From NCBI GenBank assembly GCA_902544135.1, contig CACCBF010000001.1, forward strand, positions 124,001-188,000: a DNA stretch of 64,000 nt. The letters run 5' to 3'. Origin of the DNA: an uncultured Pelagibacteraceae bacterium. GTDB lineage: Bacteria; Pseudomonadota; Alphaproteobacteria; Pelagibacterales; Pelagibacteraceae. A model generated the notes under the pieces. That model was not told the DNA's origin and did no database searches. It worked only from the letters and a program-made list of their open reading frames with translations. Positions 31,430 to 58,654 of the stretch are shown here, in pieces. Both the position numbers and the translations under genes were made by a program. The stretch's first letter is position 1; each line of letters opens with the position of its first letter.

Positions 31430-32044
31430 CTAATACTGTTGTGTTACAATAATAATTAAGGCTATGATTACCAAAACACTCGCTGAGATTGTATTAATTG
31501 TTTTTGGATTTGTTTTTATCCATGTAATAAGTTTTTGCGCCAACAGAGCGTAACCAATCAAAGAAATAAAATCTAAAATAACATAAGTAGTTATTAAAAT
31601 AAAAAATTGGACGATGTAATTAGCACTAAAGTCAATAAATTGGGGGAAAATTAAGGGAAAGAACAACCAAGCCTTAGGACTTGTACCTGCAACTAAAAAA
31701 CCATCTTTATAAAAAGAAAAAGTTCCTTTTGAGCTAATTATTTTCGAATTAATATCTTTTGGTGAAGATTTGTAAACATCATAAGCTAAATAAATTAAAT
31801 AAATTACACCAATCCATTTAAAAATATTTAGTATATTTGGATTGTCAGATAAAAAAGAACCGATGACAAAAATTACTAGAGTTGCCTGTAGTAAATTTGC
31901 GGTAACATCTCCAAAGGCTGTCCAAATACAATTTTTAACTCCATAATTCATTGAATAAGAAATGATTACTATTCTAGGGGTACCAGGTGTAATAAATAAA
32001 AAAATAATAATCTGTAAGAAAAGGATAAAATCTAGGGGGAGCAT
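31430..32044 (-). CDS. LysE family exporter
   Basis: 204 residues, six hydrophobic segments, LysE N-terminal signature FITPGTPRIVIISYSMNYG (about 17-35) in which TPGTPR replaces the more common TPGPN. It should export an amino acid or related compound. Its ATG comes directly after a hairpin plus nine T residues (32045-32100), so its expression may be controlled by transcription attenuation. The next gene downstream, livJ2, has its own upstream region. Confidence 0.82.
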   Translation of the reverse strand: MLPLDFILFLQIIIFLFITPGTPRIVIISYSMNYGVKNCIWTAFGDVTANLLQATLVIFVIGSFLSDNPNILNIFKWIGVIYLIYLAYDVYKSSPKDINSKIISSKGTFSFYKDGFLVAGTSPKAWLFFPLIFPQFIDFSANYIVQFFILITTYVILDFISLIGYALLAQKLITWIKTNPKTINTISASVLVIIALIIIVTQQY

Positions 32045-32100
32045 AAAAAAAAAGATAGTCCTTAAAAACCGGGAGCTAAAGATGGCTAAGAAGGACTATC
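32045..32100 (-). promoter_or_regulatory. hairpin with T-run abutting the lysE-type start codon (possible attenuator)
   Basis: A perfect 10-bp inverted repeat (GATAGTCCTT at 32054-32063 with AAGGACTATC at 32091-32100) encloses a 27-nt loop. Read towards the lysE-type gene it is followed by nine T residues and then at once by the ATG. This is terminator architecture inside a 5' leader, and a TATAAT (32139-32134, minus strand) lies upstream. It could be an attenuator with an unrecognised ligand or the end of a short RNA. I do not recognise a known riboswitch class. Confidence 0.5.
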
Positions 32101-32164
32101 AAATAATAATATATCAGGTCTTAAAAAAAATGCATTATAGATTTTTTTGAAATATAAGGGATTT

Positions 32165-52502: not shown

Positions 52503-53327
52503 ATGCCTAAAGAAAAACCAGAATTAAGTGACGCAATGCGAAAGAAGTTGAGTGGAAAATTAACTGAAAGGAAGCCAATTAATGGAACAAAATTCACTAT
52601 TGCCGTTTCAAGTGCTAAAGGTGGAGTTGGAAAGTCAACTTTTGCTACAAACCTCGCTTTAGCCTTAAAACAAATCGGCTGCAGAGTTGGGTTGTTAGAT
52701 GCTGATATATATGGCCCCTCTATTCCTAAAATGTTTGGGATAGATGAGAAACCAAAGAGTGATGGTCAAAAGTTAGAGCCTATTATCAAATACGGTATTC
52801 AATGTATGTCCATAGGCTTTTTAACAGATGAAAAAACTCCAATGATATGGAGAGGTCCAATGGTAACAAGTGCAATAAAAACATTCACTCAACAGGTCAA
52901 CTGGAAAAATCTAGATTTTATAATTGTCGATATGCCACCCGGAACTGGTGATACTCAACTAACTTTTTCTCAAGGCATTGAAATGAATGGAGCAATCATT
53001 GTATCTACGCCACAAGAAGTAGCGCTTTTAGATGTCAAAAGAGGAATAAAAATGTTTGATAAGCTTGGGGTAAAAATTTTGGGTCTTATAGATAATATGT
53101 GCTCTTTTACAGGAGATGATGGGAAAAAATATGCAATTTTTGGAGAAGGTGGAGTTAAAAGAACTGCAGAGGAATTCAATAAAGAATTTTTGGCAGAAAT
53201 ACCGATTGATTCAGATGTTGGTAAATTTGGAGATCAAGGAAAGCCTATAGTAGAAAGTAACCCAAACAGTAAGATATCTCAAATCTATATTAATTTAGCA
53301 AAAAAGATTAGATCAATTTATCTTTAA
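52503..53327 (+). CDS. mrp: Mrp/NBP35-family iron-sulfur carrier ATPase, lacking N-terminal domain and CxxC
   Basis: 274 residues. Deviant Walker [12 protein letters not shown] (36-46), [16 protein letters not shown] and [13 protein letters not shown] are conserved. Most bacterial Mrp/ApbC proteins have an N-terminal MIP18/DUF59 domain and a C-terminal CxxC that holds a [4Fe-4S] cluster. Here only about 27 residues precede the ATPase core, and the region that normally reads ENMS..ICxxCG...IFGxGG is [21 protein letters not shown], with a single Cys. So cluster binding may differ. Convergent 20-nt overlap with thyX. Confidence 0.9.
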
Positions 53328-54255
53328 GTTCTAAAGCAGACATAAGCTCGTTCCACTCTCTTTTTGACAAGCCAGACTTTTCAGCATCTACTTTTTCACC
53401 ACTAATAAGTTTTTGTATTATTTTTTTTCCTTTTGATGATACTTCTGTACCCCCCACTCTATAATCTAAAAATGCATCATAAGTAATTGGTACCCATCTT
53501 TTAACAGTATCTAGCATAACATCTGCATAAGCCCTTATTTCATATTGAGCGTGATGATCAGCTCTTAATCTTAAAAAATTCATTAAATTTAAAAGATCTG
53601 TTTTCCAATACCATTGTGTATAAGTATTTAGTGTTAGATTCATTCTTGCTAGCTCTCTTGCTAAACCAACTTGTTTTTCATCAATTACAGATCCATCATA
53701 TCTCTCATTAAGCATAGTTTCGTAATTATCATAGGTTTGTTCTGCATCCTTTTTCAGTAAATCTAAAACTTTTTTTGCCTGATCTCCTGAAAGAACATCT
53801 CCTCTTCCTTGTCTATTACTTTGAGATTGTGCTGCTAAATTTTCTACAGCAGGCAGATAGAACTCTTTATCTAAAATAGAATATCTTGCGGAATATTCAT
53901 TTACATTAGCCGTTCTATGTCTGATCCATTGTCTTGCAATAAAAATTGGAAGTTTTACGTGATACTTAATTTCACACATTTCAAATGGCGTACTGTGCCA
54001 ATGTCTCATTAAATATTTTATTAACCCTGAGTCAGTTGAAACTTTTTTTGTACCTTTGCCGTAAGAGACTCTTGCAGCCTGAACAATGGAAGTATCGTCA
54101 CCCATATAATCAATCACTCTTATAAAACCATGATCTAAAATGGGTATTGCCTCGTAAAGAATATTTTCTAGTTCTGTTACAGTAACCCTCTTTGTTTTAT
54201 TTTCTTGAGACTGTTGATCTTTAATTTCTTGTTGCTGTTCCTTGGTTAATTTCAT
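53308..54255 (-). CDS. thyX: flavin-dependent thymidylate synthase
   Basis: 315 residues. ThyX motif [15 protein letters not shown] (family RHRxxSxNExSxRY with Ala at the usual Ser), plus [10 protein letters not shown] before it and a C-terminal [16 protein letters not shown]. It makes dTMP from dUMP with FAD and NADPH, and replaces ThyA. It is about 80 residues longer than many ThyX proteins, with a charged N-terminal extension ([18 protein letters not shown]). Its 3' end overlaps mrp by 20 nt; ssrA is divergent from it. Confidence 0.96.
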
Positions 54256-54265
54256 GAATAATTTA

Positions 54266-54293
54266 TTGAATCTTTAAGGATTACTTTTATATT
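54266..54293 (+). promoter_or_regulatory. candidate promoter for ssrA
   Basis: TTGAAT (54266-54271) and TATATT (54288-54293) are separated by 16 bp in the gap between thyX and ssrA. The predicted transcript would start near 54300, just before the acceptor piece of the tmRNA. Confidence 0.5.
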
Positions 54294-54299
54294 AAACAT

Positions 54300-54559
54300 G
54301 TTGGTTTTCCAACTATGACGATAAACGAATTTCGTAATAACCACCGCGGACGTGGGGGCAGTACCCACCACCTCCACCATTTACAACTTATGGGGGTGAA
54401 CTAGAGTCGACGGGTGACTAAAGGCTGTTCTTTCGTTCGGAATTGTTCCTCCGTAAAGGGCTAATTTATAATTGCTAACGAAAGTTACGCACTTGCTGCC
54501 TAATTAACTTTGTTAATTAAGCAAACGGGGTTTTGGGGCACCTGGCAACAGAACGCCCC
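54300..54559 (+). ncRNA. ssrA: transfer-messenger RNA, circularly permuted two-piece form
   Basis: The gene is permuted. The acceptor piece comes first and ends in an encoded CCA (54377-54379). After a 12-nt intervening segment (54380-54391) the coding piece begins with GGGGGTG (54392-54398). The two pair as a 7-bp acceptor stem with CACCTCC (54369-54375), with the G-U pair at position 3 that AlaRS needs. A second helix links 54432-54437 to 54324-54329. The tag reads A-N-E-S-Y-A-L-A-A followed by TAA (54474-54503), then an 8-bp hairpin. The coding piece ends near a GGGGC/GCCCC stem (54535-54559). tmRNA rescues stalled ribosomes with SmpB. The outer ends are estimated. Confidence 0.95.
54535..54559 (+). 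repeat. ssrA-terminal 25-nt repeat, copy 1
   Basis: Last 25 nt of the ssrA coding piece; GGGGC and GCCCC at its ends can pair. An exact copy lies at 54960-54984 and the final 14 nt (CAACAGAACGCCCC) recur at 55120-55133. Candidate attachment-site core. Confidence 0.85.
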
Positions 54560-54687
54560 TTCCTATTTTAAAATAAGTTTTGTTTATCAACGTAATTTAA
54601 AAAATACAACCTGACGAGTCGGAGTAGAGTCGTAATTCTCTAATCAAAATTATTATGCTAAGATCAATTATTAACAAAGGAGCTATT

Positions 54688-54843
54688 ATGAAATATACTA
54701 ATTTCATCCTAACCGTGATTGCAGTTGCATTAATCGGAATACTATTTAAAGGCGAGGCATATGCTGTAAGTGATCGAGCTATCTATATGTATATAAGAGA
54801 TGACGTTATACCATTATTAGAGCAACTTATTAGTATGCATTAA
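54688..54843 (+). CDS. short exported protein of unknown function (51 residues)
   Basis: From the ATG at 54688, which has AAGGAG 5 nt upstream; a start at 54655 would add 11 residues but has no such site. The peptide begins with a signal-like hydrophobic segment (NFILTVIAVALIGILF) and an AYA cleavage pattern, leaving a mature part of about 26 residues with an amphipathic helix (DDVIPLLEQLI). I do not recognise it. It lies between two exact copies of the ssrA-terminal repeat and is followed by a 12-bp hairpin, so it looks like cargo of a small inserted element. Confidence 0.55.
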   Translation: MKYTNFILTVIAVALIGILFKGEAYAVSDRAIYMYIRDDVIPLLEQLISMH

Positions 54844-54852
54844 AATCTTATA

Positions 54853-54882
54853 CTATGACGACCAGATTTTTGGTCGTCATAG
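54853..54882 (+). terminator. 12-bp perfect hairpin after the small ORF
   Basis: CTATGACGACCA (54853-54864) pairs with TGGTCGTCATAG (54871-54882) across a 6-nt loop. It begins 9 nt after the small ORF stop. No T-run follows, so it may stabilise the mRNA 3' end or be a protein-binding site rather than an intrinsic terminator. Confidence 0.5.
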
Positions 54883-54959
54883 AGTCGGAATTATTCTATA
54901 ATTTATCTGATTTGATTATTACTAATTGTTGCAATGAAAGGATTATTGAAACAAAGTTC

Positions 54960-54984
54960 GGGGCACCTGGCAACAGAACGCCCC
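54960..54984 (+). repeat. ssrA-terminal 25-nt repeat, copy 2 (exact)
   Basis: Identical over 25 nt to the last 25 nt of ssrA. Same orientation, 425 nt downstream of copy 1. Typical of a direct repeat left when an element integrates at the 3' end of a small RNA gene. Confidence 0.9.
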
Positions 54985-55041
54985 TATAAAAAAAATAATC
55001 ATTACAACTCAATAGTTTTTTAATAATAAAAATAAAAAAAG

Positions 55042-55074
55042 AACTATGTACCGACTATGTACCAACTATGTACC
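55042..55074 (+). repeat. three tandem 11-bp repeats
   Basis: The unit (A/G)ACTATGTACC occurs three times head to tail; units one and three are identical and unit two differs in its first base. No gene covers it. Short direct repeats beside a recombination site can be arm-type integrase sites, but that is speculative here. Confidence 0.85.
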
Positions 55075-55111
55075 TTTCCAAAAACCTATATTTTCTGATA
55101 TAAACTCATTT

Positions 55112-55133
55112 GGGTCGGACAACAGAACGCCCC
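55112..55133 (+). repeat. ssrA-terminal repeat, copy 3 (partial)
   Basis: The 14 nt CAACAGAACGCCCC at its end match copies 1 and 2 exactly; the preceding eight bases have diverged. The methyltransferase ATG follows 8 nt later. Confidence 0.75.
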
Positions 55134-55140
55134 GTTTAAA

Positions 55141-55977
55141 ATGGTACAAATAAAAAAATTAATCAAACAAATTATTGGGATCAATAATATTTTAAGATTG
55201 AGACTAATATGTAAACATATTTCAGGAAATTTTTTAACATCGAAAATTTTAGCGACTGAAGAAGAATATCTTGAATTACACAGAAATTATATTGAGAAAA
55301 TTAAAGATAACGAATTTTTGAATAAAAATTTTTTATCGTCTGACATAAAATTTGTAAATGATCTTGCGCTAATTACTCAAGTCGTAAAAAAGGATACAAA
55401 AATAAATTGGATGCATGGCTTTATTTTGATGAATACTTTAAGAGATTATGTTAATAAAAATAAAACTAATATAAATATTTTTGAGACAGGCACATCGAAG
55501 GGTTTTTCTGCGATAGTTATGTCCTACGTTTTAAACCAGTTAAATTTAAATTTTAATATATATACTTTAGATATCATACCTCATGAAAAAAAGATTTACT
55601 GGAATTGCATTTCAGATCTTAAAAATGGCAAAGTATCAAGGAAGATGTTGCTTTCTGAGTATTCGAGATATTTAAAAAATATTAATTTTATAAATGGTAT
55701 ATCAAAATATATTCTAAAAGAATTAAATATAAAAAGGATACATTTTGCTTTCCTTGATGGATCACATAATTATGAGGATGTGAAATTAGAATTTGAATTT
55801 ATCAATAAAAGAAATAAAGTTGGCGATATAATAGTATTAGATGACTATACTCCCGGAAAATTTGATGGAGTGGTAAAACTCATAGAAGAGGTAAAAGTAA
55901 AAAAAAATTATAATTTACATATTTTGAATAATGATAAAGATAGAGGTTATGCTATTTTAAAAAAAATTGTTTCTTAA
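55141..55977 (+). CDS. class I SAM-dependent methyltransferase (Methyltransf_24-like)
   Basis: 278 residues. SAM-binding motif I is FETGTSKGFSAIVMS (about 118-132), then IYTLDIIPH, and the family's acidic motifs AFLDGSHNYEDVKLEFEF and IIVLDDYTPGKFDGV near the C-terminus. Related proteins methylate sugars or small molecules and often occur in surface-polysaccharide or island loci. The ATG lies 8 nt after a partial ssrA-terminal repeat and has no Shine-Dalgarno, so its 5' end may have been reshaped by recombination. It is very AT- and Lys-rich. Acceptor substrate unknown. Confidence 0.78.
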   Translation: MVQIKKLIKQIIGINNILRLRLICKHISGNFLTSKILATEEEYLELHRNYIEKIKDNEFLNKNFLSSDIKFVNDLALITQVVKKDTKINWMHGFILMNTLRDYVNKNKTNINIFETGTSKGFSAIVMSYVLNQLNLNFNIYTLDIIPHEKKIYWNCISDLKNGKVSRKMLLSEYSRYLKNINFINGISKYILKELNIKRIHFAFLDGSHNYEDVKLEFEFINKRNKVGDIIVLDDYTPGKFDGVVKLIEEVKVKKNYNLHILNNDKDRGYAILKKIVS

Positions 55978-55990
55978 TAAGAATATGAGC

Positions 55991-58654
55991 TTATAATTTT
56001 TTTTTTAATTCCGCTTGTGCTGCTGCCAGTCTTGCAATAGGAATTCTATATGGAGAACATGAGACATAATTTAGACCTATTCTTGAGCAAAAATTAATGC
56101 TTTTTGGGTCACCACCATGTTCTCCACAAATACCTAATTTAATTTGTTTGTTTTGTTTTCTTCCTTTGGTAACAGCTATTTCAACTAAATCTTCTACACC
56201 TTCATCTATTGAAATAAATGGATCTATTGAAAAAATCTTATTTTCGATATAATCGTTTAGAAATTTTCCACTATCATCTCTACTAATACCAAAAGTGGTT
56301 TGAGTTAAATCATTTGTCCCAAAGCTAAAAAATTCAGCATGTTTTGCAATATCCTTTGCTTTAATTGCTGCTCTAGGTAGCTCAATCATTGTTCCAACTA
56401 AAAATTCTATTTTTACTTTATTTTCTTTTTGTACTTTTCTCGCGGTGTTGATTACAAGATCTTTCATTATTTTGATTTCCGCTTCAGTCGACACTAATGG
56501 AATCATTATTTCAGGGAATGCAAATTTTTTTTTATTTCCTATAAGCTCTGACAAAGCTTTAAAAATTGCCTCACATTGCATTTCATAAATTTCAGGAAAT
56601 GAGATACCTAGTCTACAACCTCTGTGTCCAAGCATTGGATTTTGCTCATGAAGTTCATCAATTCTAGATTTTACTTCTTTAACACTTAAACCAACCACTT
56701 CTGCAACCTCTGAAATTTCTTTTTCAGATTTTGGGAGAAACTCATGTAATGGGGGATCAAGTAAACGTACTGTTACTGGTAATCCATGCATAATCTTGAA
56801 TATTTCAATAAAATCTTTTTTTTGATGTGGTAAAAGCTTCAAGAGTGCTTTTGATCTATCATCTTTAGTTTTAGAAAGTATCATCTCTCGCACAGAAATA
56901 ATTCTTTCCTCATCAAAAAACATATGTTCCGTTCTACATAAACCAATTCCTTCCGCCCCAAAATCTCTTGCAACTTTTGTGTCTAAAGGGGTTTCTGCAT
57001 TTGTTCGAACTTTAAGTTTTCTAACATTGTCAGCCCAACTCATTAATTTTGAGAAGTCCCCTGAAATTTCAGGTTTAACTGTTGGTACACTTCCTAAAAT
57101 AATTCTTCCAGAAGACCCGTCAATTGTGATGATATCACCTTCTTTAATCTCCATTGAAGAAGTTTTGAAAATTTTTTTCTCATAATCAATATCAATTTCG
57201 CTTGAGCCTGAAACGCATGGTCTACCCATTCCTCTTGCAACAACAGCTGCATGACTAGTCATTCCTCCCCTAGAAGTCAGTATCCCTTTAGCGGCGTGCA
57301 TACCCTGAATATCTTCTGGCGAAGTTTCTACTCTAACCAATATTACATTTTGCATCATATTATTAAGTCTCTCAGCTTCTTCAGATGTAAACACTACTTT
57401 TCCACTAGCAGCTCCTGGAGAGGCAGGCAAACCATTTGCAATTATTTCTATAGAACTTTTTTCATTCAAGGTAGGATGTAATAATGTGTCCAAAGAATTT
57501 GGGTCAACTCTTAAAATAGCTTGTTTTTTTGAAATCAATTTTTCTTTAACCATATCTACAGCAATCTTAACTGCTGATTTTGCAGTCCTTTTACCTGACC
57601 TAGTTTGTAGGATCCATAATTTCTCATTCTCAACTGTAAATTCTACATCTTGCATATCTTTGTAATGCGCCTCTAACTTTTTTAAAATTTTATGAAGCTC
57701 TAAATAAACTTTTGGCATAGACTCTTCCATAGAAGGTGCTTCAACTTTTGCCTCTCGTTTGGCTTTTTTCGTAATATATTGTGGTGTCCTTGTCCCTGCT
57801 ACCACATCCTCTCCTTGAGCATTAATTAAATACTCTCCATAAATATTATTTGATCCGTCTGACGGATTTCTTGTAAAAACAACTCCGGTAGCACAATCAT
57901 TTCCCATATTTCCAAAAACCATAGATTGTACATTAACTGCTGTTCCCCATTCAGATGGTATTTGATTTAACTTTCTATAAATTTTAGCTCTATTACTTTC
58001 CCAAGATAAAAATACTGCACTTATTGCTCCAAATAATTGTTGATATACATCTTGAGGAAATTCTTTTTTTGTTTTTTCTTTAACAATACTTTTAAAATCT
58101 TTTATCAAACCATCCCAATCATCTTCATCAAGATCTGTGTCTAGTAAAACTCCTTTGGTTAATTTATAATTTTCTATAAGTTCCTCAAAATGATAATTTT
58201 CTACTCCAAGAACAACATTTCCATACATTTGAATAAATCTTCTGTAACTATCTTTGGCAAATCTTCCGTTAGATGTTTCGTTAGCTAGTGCTTTAACTGT
58301 TTTGTCATTCAAGCCAAGGTTAAGAATTGTATCCATCATACCAGGCATAGACACTCTAGCACCAGATCTCACTGATAATAAAAGAGGATTTTTTAAATCT
58401 CCAAATTTTTTTCTCACATCTTTCTCAATTATCTTCAACTCTTTTTTAATTTGATTTATCAATGAAGAATTCAATCTCTTTTTATTTTGGTAAAAAAAAT
58501 TGCAGACTTTTGTTGAAATTGTAAATCCAGGTGGAACTGGAAGACCCATTCTTCCCATTTCTGATAAATTGGCACCTTTACCGCCTAAAAAATTTTTGGG
58601 ATTTTTAACTTTTTTAGAGTCTTTAGATTTAAAATTTAAAATCAACTTATTCAT
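55991..58654 (-). CDS. ppdK: pyruvate, phosphate dikinase
   Basis: 887 residues, full length. N-terminal ATP-grasp domain (LGGKGANLSEMGRMGLPVPPGFTIST), central phospho-histidine domain with GGMTSHAAVVARGMGRPC, and C-terminal PEP/pyruvate barrel ending in the catalytic Cys motif LGICGEHGGDP. It interconverts pyruvate, ATP and Pi with PEP, AMP and PPi, for gluconeogenesis or PPi-driven glycolysis. It overlaps glyS by 8 nt. Confidence 0.97.
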   Translation of the reverse strand: MNKLILNFKSKDSKKVKNPKNFLGGKGANLSEMGRMGLPVPPGFTISTKVCNFFYQNKKRLNSSLINQIKKELKIIEKDVRKKFGDLKNPLLLSVRSGARVSMPGMMDTILNLGLNDKTVKALANETSNGRFAKDSYRRFIQMYGNVVLGVENYHFEELIENYKLTKGVLLDTDLDEDDWDGLIKDFKSIVKEKTKKEFPQDVYQQLFGAISAVFLSWESNRAKIYRKLNQIPSEWGTAVNVQSMVFGNMGNDCATGVVFTRNPSDGSNNIYGEYLINAQGEDVVAGTRTPQYITKKAKREAKVEAPSMEESMPKVYLELHKILKKLEAHYKDMQDVEFTVENEKLWILQTRSGKRTAKSAVKIAVDMVKEKLISKKQAILRVDPNSLDTLLHPTLNEKSSIEIIANGLPASPGAASGKVVFTSEEAERLNNMMQNVILVRVETSPEDIQGMHAAKGILTSRGGMTSHAAVVARGMGRPCVSGSSEIDIDYEKKIFKTSSMEIKEGDIITIDGSSGRIILGSVPTVKPEISGDFSKLMSWADNVRKLKVRTNAETPLDTKVARDFGAEGIGLCRTEHMFFDEERIISVREMILSKTKDDRSKALLKLLPHQKKDFIEIFKIMHGLPVTVRLLDPPLHEFLPKSEKEISEVAEVVGLSVKEVKSRIDELHEQNPMLGHRGCRLGISFPEIYEMQCEAIFKALSELIGNKKKFAFPEIMIPLVSTEAEIKIMKDLVINTARKVQKENKVKIEFLVGTMIELPRAAIKAKDIAKHAEFFSFGTNDLTQTTFGISRDDSGKFLNDYIENKIFSIDPFISIDEGVEDLVEIAVTKGRKQNKQIKLGICGEHGGDPKSINFCSRIGLNYVSCSPYRIPIARLAAAQAELKKKL

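Follow-up and report, generated by a model that had tools for sequence, protein, structure and literature searches.

Putative non-autonomous integrative cassettes at the 3' end of permuted ssrA in a Pelagibacteraceae genome and its relatives

We analysed a 64,000-nt stretch of DNA from an uncultured Pelagibacteraceae bacterium (GenBank assembly GCA_902544135.1, contig CACCBF010000001.1, positions 124,001 to 188,000; hereafter the window) together with related loci, focusing on the interval between thyX and ppdK, in which the 3' end of ssrA, the gene for transfer-messenger RNA (tmRNA), is repeated. The results point to a pair of site-specific integrative cassettes, both non-autonomous, that occupy the 3' end of the permuted ssrA gene together with an inserted methyltransferase gene and would be moved by an integrase supplied in trans, a reading to which we assign a probability of about 0.82. 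The mechanism is well supported as far as the anatomy of the attachment (att) sites is concerned; that an integrase acts in trans, in which direction the cassettes move and whether they are active today are matters of inference from the sequences.

The ssrA gene lies at 54262–54563 on the plus strand (Rfam RF01849 alpha_tmRNA, 224 bits), and ARAGORN placed the tmRNA at 54284–54594 with the tag ANESYALAA. Because the gene is of the permuted alphaproteobacterial type, the repeated terminus, with which the coding piece finishes, is a 3' end that is not tRNA-like; it would be the attB-like target. The first core copy, GGGGCACCTGGCAACAGAACGCCCC, is the RNA hairpin end of ssrA itself (54535–54559, plus strand) and forms attL of the first unit, element A. 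An exact 25-nt copy at 54960–54984 (plus strand) is both attR of element A and attL of the following element B, and the third copy (55120–55133, plus strand) is a short core, CAACAGAACGCCCC, equal to the last 14 nt of the ssrA coding piece. All three copies are directly oriented, and the core folds into a short hairpin. Shuffled-window controls gave 0 matches for a 19-mer with 3 mismatches and 0 for a 14-mer with 1 mismatch. A preliminary description of this DNA had reported the repeats, and all of them were verified in direct orientation, with coordinates accurate to within one base; the small exported-peptide open reading frame (ORF) and the methyltransferase gene that it named are both present, and the interval contains no integrase, as it had said. 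Frames read through the core yield the peptide APGNRTP in the cores of all arrays (for example at 54855–54989 of the window), and short annotated ORFs starting or ending in APGNRTP are probably translations of the core, not proteins.

Units between adjacent cores have a head (H) and a tail (T) end, and these are paired by family: H1 with T1, H2 with T2, H3 with T5, and H4/H6 with T3. Inside both ends lie short arm repeats spaced 10–12 bp. Element A (54560–54984, plus strand) is a 425-bp unit running from an H1 to a T1 end, and its only cargo is a 51-aa exported-type peptide (54688–54843, plus strand) without a Pfam or PHROGs match. Its arm motif is GAGTCGG: the H side carries GAGTCGG and GAGTCGT at a spacing of 11 bp (54616–54633, plus strand), and the T side carries the inverted repeat CTATGACGACCA/TGGTCGTCATAG followed by GAGTCGG (54853–54888, plus strand). 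This T-side arm framework is conserved in 32 loci, and the T1 end as a whole (about 140 bp) is conserved in more than 40 other loci whose cargo is unrelated. Element B (54985–55133, plus strand), 149 bp from core to core, is a minimal element without cargo that runs from an H6 to a T3 end; its arms are three ACTATGTACC repeats at 11-bp spacing (55043–55074, plus strand), against 0.04 expected in the window. The left part of element B is 96% identical in L351/L253, its H6 end was also found in L014, and its T3 end in L039 and L050. Beyond these two units, the only ones in the window with cores on both sides, lie 863 bp with a methyltransferase gene (Pfam Methyltransf_24; 55141–55977, plus strand), which we rejected as a third core-bounded cassette because it has no right core. 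The repeats had earlier been taken as the att footprint of one insert; the att interpretation holds, but the three copies delimit two successive elements. The layout at 55141–55977 of the window is seen again at L034, L047, L064, L049 and L067: the space separating the final core from the right flank holds a gene on the plus strand, often resembling a methyltransferase, with no core to its right.

The integration site is flanked by thyX on the left (53308–54255, minus strand) and ppdK on the right (55991–58654, minus strand). Its occupancy was read from 27 stretches holding thyX, ssrA and ppdK, some of which are repeat retrievals of one place. Three sites (L063, L346 and L197) were empty, with one core and 14–19 bp between the ssrA core and the 3' end of ppdK. 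The flanking proteins of L063 are 95–96% identical to those of the window, and since this site is empty, the entire 1.43 kb of the window is an insertion relative to it; the methyltransferase gene, previously placed just outside the insert, is absent from L063 and thus belongs to the inserted DNA. In close relatives, L194, L259, L271, L036, L281 and L300 carried one or more units, and ppdK resumed 13–32 bp past the last core. Among relatives the interval was empty or held one element or three different ones, and the boundaries between empty and filled sites were core-precise. The comparison of this interval proposed in the preliminary description thus revealed both empty and differently filled sites, and the contrary outcome it had named, identical triple repeats in all relatives, was not observed.

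The two ends of an element resemble each other in their arms. The H and T ends of the same element had 3.2 direct 8-mers in common vs 0.94 expected, and 0.99 inverted 8-mers vs 0.92 expected. Arm 7-mers common to both ends numbered 5.68 within elements vs 3.29 between elements (0/5000 permutations, n = 152); the matching was found inside the T1 and T2 families separately (0/5000 permutations each) and was weak in the T1b family (75/5000). Paired ACTATGTACC and ATTGAAGT arms occurred solely beside cores in 151 genomes. This arrangement is that of putative tyrosine-integrase arm sites (attP anatomy) with allelic specificities, and as the alleles match within cassettes and differ between them, several integrase specificities are implied. 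The position of the crossover was located with three genomes, G152 (genus g3), G190 (genus g12) and G223 (which belongs to the window's genus and has a divergent ssrA), in which the local ssrA core reads CACCGGGC.., CACCTTGC.. or CACCGGGT.. and the distal copy is different; in two of them the distal core reads C[AT][CT]CTGGC.. like cassettes elsewhere. Since the distal core is unlike the local one, its left half is element-borne and the exchange falls within AACAGAACGCC, the only part that the short T3–T5 cores share. The differences in the distal cores also indicate movement between genera.

The core is widespread in the family. CACCTGGCAACAGAA was present in 119 of the 151 genomes of the window's genus (a reversed control pattern gave 0 matches), and about a third, 52 as counted from the table, had at least two copies. 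Copies on the same contig were typically 0.2–5 kb apart, arrays often comprised 2–8 copies, and the largest had eight cores (L180). At family level, 10 of 14 genera contained the core 19-mer. Besides ssrA, cores and arrays were found at the rnhA|prx, pnp|fabI and bmt|tsaD-like junctions and elsewhere. At the rnhA site only 4 of 22 genomes had a core, showing that the cores there were acquired; a native rnhA terminator was rejected as their origin, since the core is absent from most relatives. In one locus (L196, G324:C1:166000-175000), prx, the usual right flank of the rnhA site, was located inside an ssrA array. Exact element-end matches in GTDB were confined to Pelagibacteraceae in 85 of 87 cases, largely in single-cell assemblies, which argues against assembly artefacts; the other two, in Adhaeribacter and a gammaproteobacterial metagenome-assembled genome, were chance coding coincidences. 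Of the earlier characterization as a remnant or non-autonomous insert, the non-autonomy stands, but the insert is not a solitary relic and forms one array within a system spanning several genera and chromosomal sites.

The intervals between cores (n = 94) had a median length of 879 bp and ranged from 149 to 13653 bp. Below 6 kb, 125 ORFs ran against ssrA and 37 ran with it. The cargo comprised exported and lipoprotein-like proteins, trypsin-like proteases, GIY-YIG and endonuclease-VII-like nucleases, MrcB_N/NOV_C and DNA methylase genes, cupredoxin and DUF6994, as well as many ORFs without a match. Phage packaging or interference genes were not seen among the sampled cargo, most of which has no family match. 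Cargo proteins were 83–99% identical at different chromosomal sites; homologous cassettes showed 99% protein identity at rnhA and ssrA and 86% at pnp and ssrA, and one cargo was 95% identical at rnhA and at ssrA of another genus. In seven loci (L038, L046, L049, L052, L066, L068 and L180), cassette proteins with unrelated mature parts had near-identical signal peptides (MKKLSLYIFL..., MKKLLGIVVLG...), which suggests that the conserved end of the cassette includes the start of the gene. Elsewhere in the window, at 32036–32118 on the minus strand, Rfam matched an rhtB small RNA (80.6 bits).

A phmmer search recovered 0 integrase genes in 222 core-bearing loci (1.5 Mb), and the same queries recovered 30 of 30 positive-control loci; the elements are therefore classed as non-autonomous only. 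As candidates for a viral attP, exact core matches in IMG/VR were rejected, as they fell only in tmRNA genes, mostly of T4-like phages, and short-core viral matches were attributed to chance. End frameworks and arms had no viral match, phage records were likewise negative, and the pelagiphage integrase link proposed in the preliminary description was not found in these searches. Marine viral contigs (L071–L081), mostly T4-like, had tmRNA genes of their own, which are of the permuted alphaproteobacterial type and share this terminus. The prophage-type integrases present in some SAR11 genomes (320–556 aa) adjoin tRNA genes in about half of cases, and they were rejected as cassette movers because their surroundings contain neither a core nor any of the known arms. 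A search of eight genomes for an E. coli-type dif site found nothing, XerC/XerD were not found in Pelagibacteraceae, and the core is not dif-like.

These results are best accommodated by the following mechanism. Every cassette terminates in a copy of the hairpin sequence from the end of ssrA, the putative crossover core, and has integrase arm sites inside both ends, a full attL/attR pair. Integration at the ssrA core would restore the tmRNA 3' end and leave a second core, which would let further cassettes stack. The cassettes encode no recombinase; their excision and insertion are most likely the work of a tyrosine integrase that has an arm-binding domain and is supplied in trans by a mobile element or phage absent from these genomes. 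Several observations weigh against this mechanism. Searches of SAR11 genomes, phage records and IMG/VR yielded no integrase accompanied by matching arms. Arm matching in the T7 family was not beyond chance (925/5000 permutations), and the methyltransferase gene has no right-hand core in the window. Empty rnhA sites showed no obvious core-like sequence, and the mechanism does not account for the arrival of cores at the ends of rnhA, pnp and bmt.

The enzyme could instead be a resident one, a conserved Cre-like tyrosine recombinase of 317 aa that would move the ssrA-core cassettes in trans, as the chromosomal integrase does for an integron array. Genomes with a PF00589 match mostly have this protein as their only one, including the array-bearing, one-contig G153. 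Its gene lies at the edge of a variable glycosyltransferase region (G000:C2:94135-94659, corresponding to L141 5728-6702; also L083–L111, L381 and L384), adjoining glycosyltransferase genes, and in nearly all loci compared, covering most sampled species, the protein is 64–91% identical to the reference, with invariant catalytic residues. It is neither XerC nor XerD (72–76 bits vs cut-offs near 330) nor an integron integrase by the corresponding model (31 bits, cut-off 265). In the sister family, XerC and XerD are both present instead and the three loci read have no arrays, and P. ubique has been reported without a dif/Xer system (PMC2731167). We nevertheless regard this enzyme as an unlikely mover, since its predicted fold is a two-domain Cre type without the N-terminal arm-binding domain (moderate-confidence model, pLDDT 68), whereas the cassettes have arm sites of several alleles; one conserved protein does not explain so many alleles, and the gene also occurs in genera g5 and g9, without an array in the loci read. 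Its extension to a genome-wide, integron-like system, in which this vertically inherited non-Xer recombinase would move single-gene cassettes among ssrA and further terminator-like cores and arm alleles would set specificity, is about equally unlikely.

Readings without a dedicated recombinase fare worse. The core forms a hairpin, and at rnhA and pnp it directly follows stop codons in the gap separating two convergent genes, as would be expected of a dispersed sequence resembling a terminator or repetitive extragenic palindrome, around which content changes by homologous recombination or gene conversion. However, 25 nt is short for homologous recombination, and the H/T frameworks, arm matching within units, precise empty sites and cross-site cargo would be left unexplained, making this account very improbable. 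The GIY-YIG or endonuclease-VII-like proteins encoded in a few cassettes might likewise be homing endonucleases that cut the ssrA core and thereby drive the spread, but most cassettes examined have no recognisable nuclease, and tandem arrays and arm sites are not homing features; we give this hardly any credence.

SAR11 is usually regarded as poor in mobile elements, and its large flexible gene pool requires a route. The cassettes would be a concrete means by which small exported proteins, proteases, restriction genes and homing nucleases are acquired and lost, and the same cassette families at several chromosomal sites of Pelagibacteraceae amount to a gene-shuffling system in highly abundant, highly streamlined ocean cells. 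They also raise the question of which recombinase moves them, and bring to light a conserved Cre-like recombinase in a lineage without Xer. The permuted tmRNA terminus as a target widens the known range of integration sites; Williams reportedly described in 2003 an element at the non-tRNA-like end of permuted ssrA in cyanobacteria. No description of SAR11 ssrA cassettes was found in the open-access literature searched, which does not prove that none exists.

Among known systems, integron cassette arrays likewise consist of small, mostly single-gene units between recombination sites, with common cargo in differing orders. Unlike integrons, the SAR11 arrays have no adjacent intI, no attI/attC and several anchor sites, and they recombine at putative double-sided att ends, whose arm repeats belong to the double-strand att type, although the core folds as a short hairpin. 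The Xer-mobilised pdif modules of Acinetobacter also carry genes between recombination sites and encode no recombinase themselves; Pelagibacteraceae, by contrast, have no XerC/XerD that we found and a core that is not dif-like. Tycheposons, described as elements of 4–200 kb that contain a tyrosine recombinase and are bordered by a tRNA (PMC10872708), similarly place mobile cargo beside an RNA gene in streamlined marine bacteria; on that description, the SAR11 units differ in size (about 0.15–5 kb), in having no recombinase and in being bordered by tmRNA and protein-gene ends. The tmRNA gene is an established integration site (PMC11915505), and the cassettes share with integrative elements and genomic islands of tRNA/tmRNA genes the targeted 3' end of a small-RNA gene, direct core repeats, a restored gene, arm sites and tandem arrays. 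Unlike those elements, no unit has an integrase, the median unit is 0.9 kb, the target is the non-tRNA-like 3' end of permuted ssrA, and the core is also found at several protein-gene ends. Ca. Methylopumilus, another streamlined planktonic bacterium, has an additive flexible island in which recurring copies of the final 20 nt of tRNA-Lys (PMC10872708) likewise delimit small variable segments (330 bp upward) of mostly unassigned function, although RNA gene and lineage are different; the end families, arm alleles and multiple targets seen here are not mentioned for that island in the consulted part of the source. The tmRNA/tRNA islands and the Methylopumilus tRNA-Lys repeat islands (PMC10872708) are the closest known counterparts of the SAR11 cassettes.
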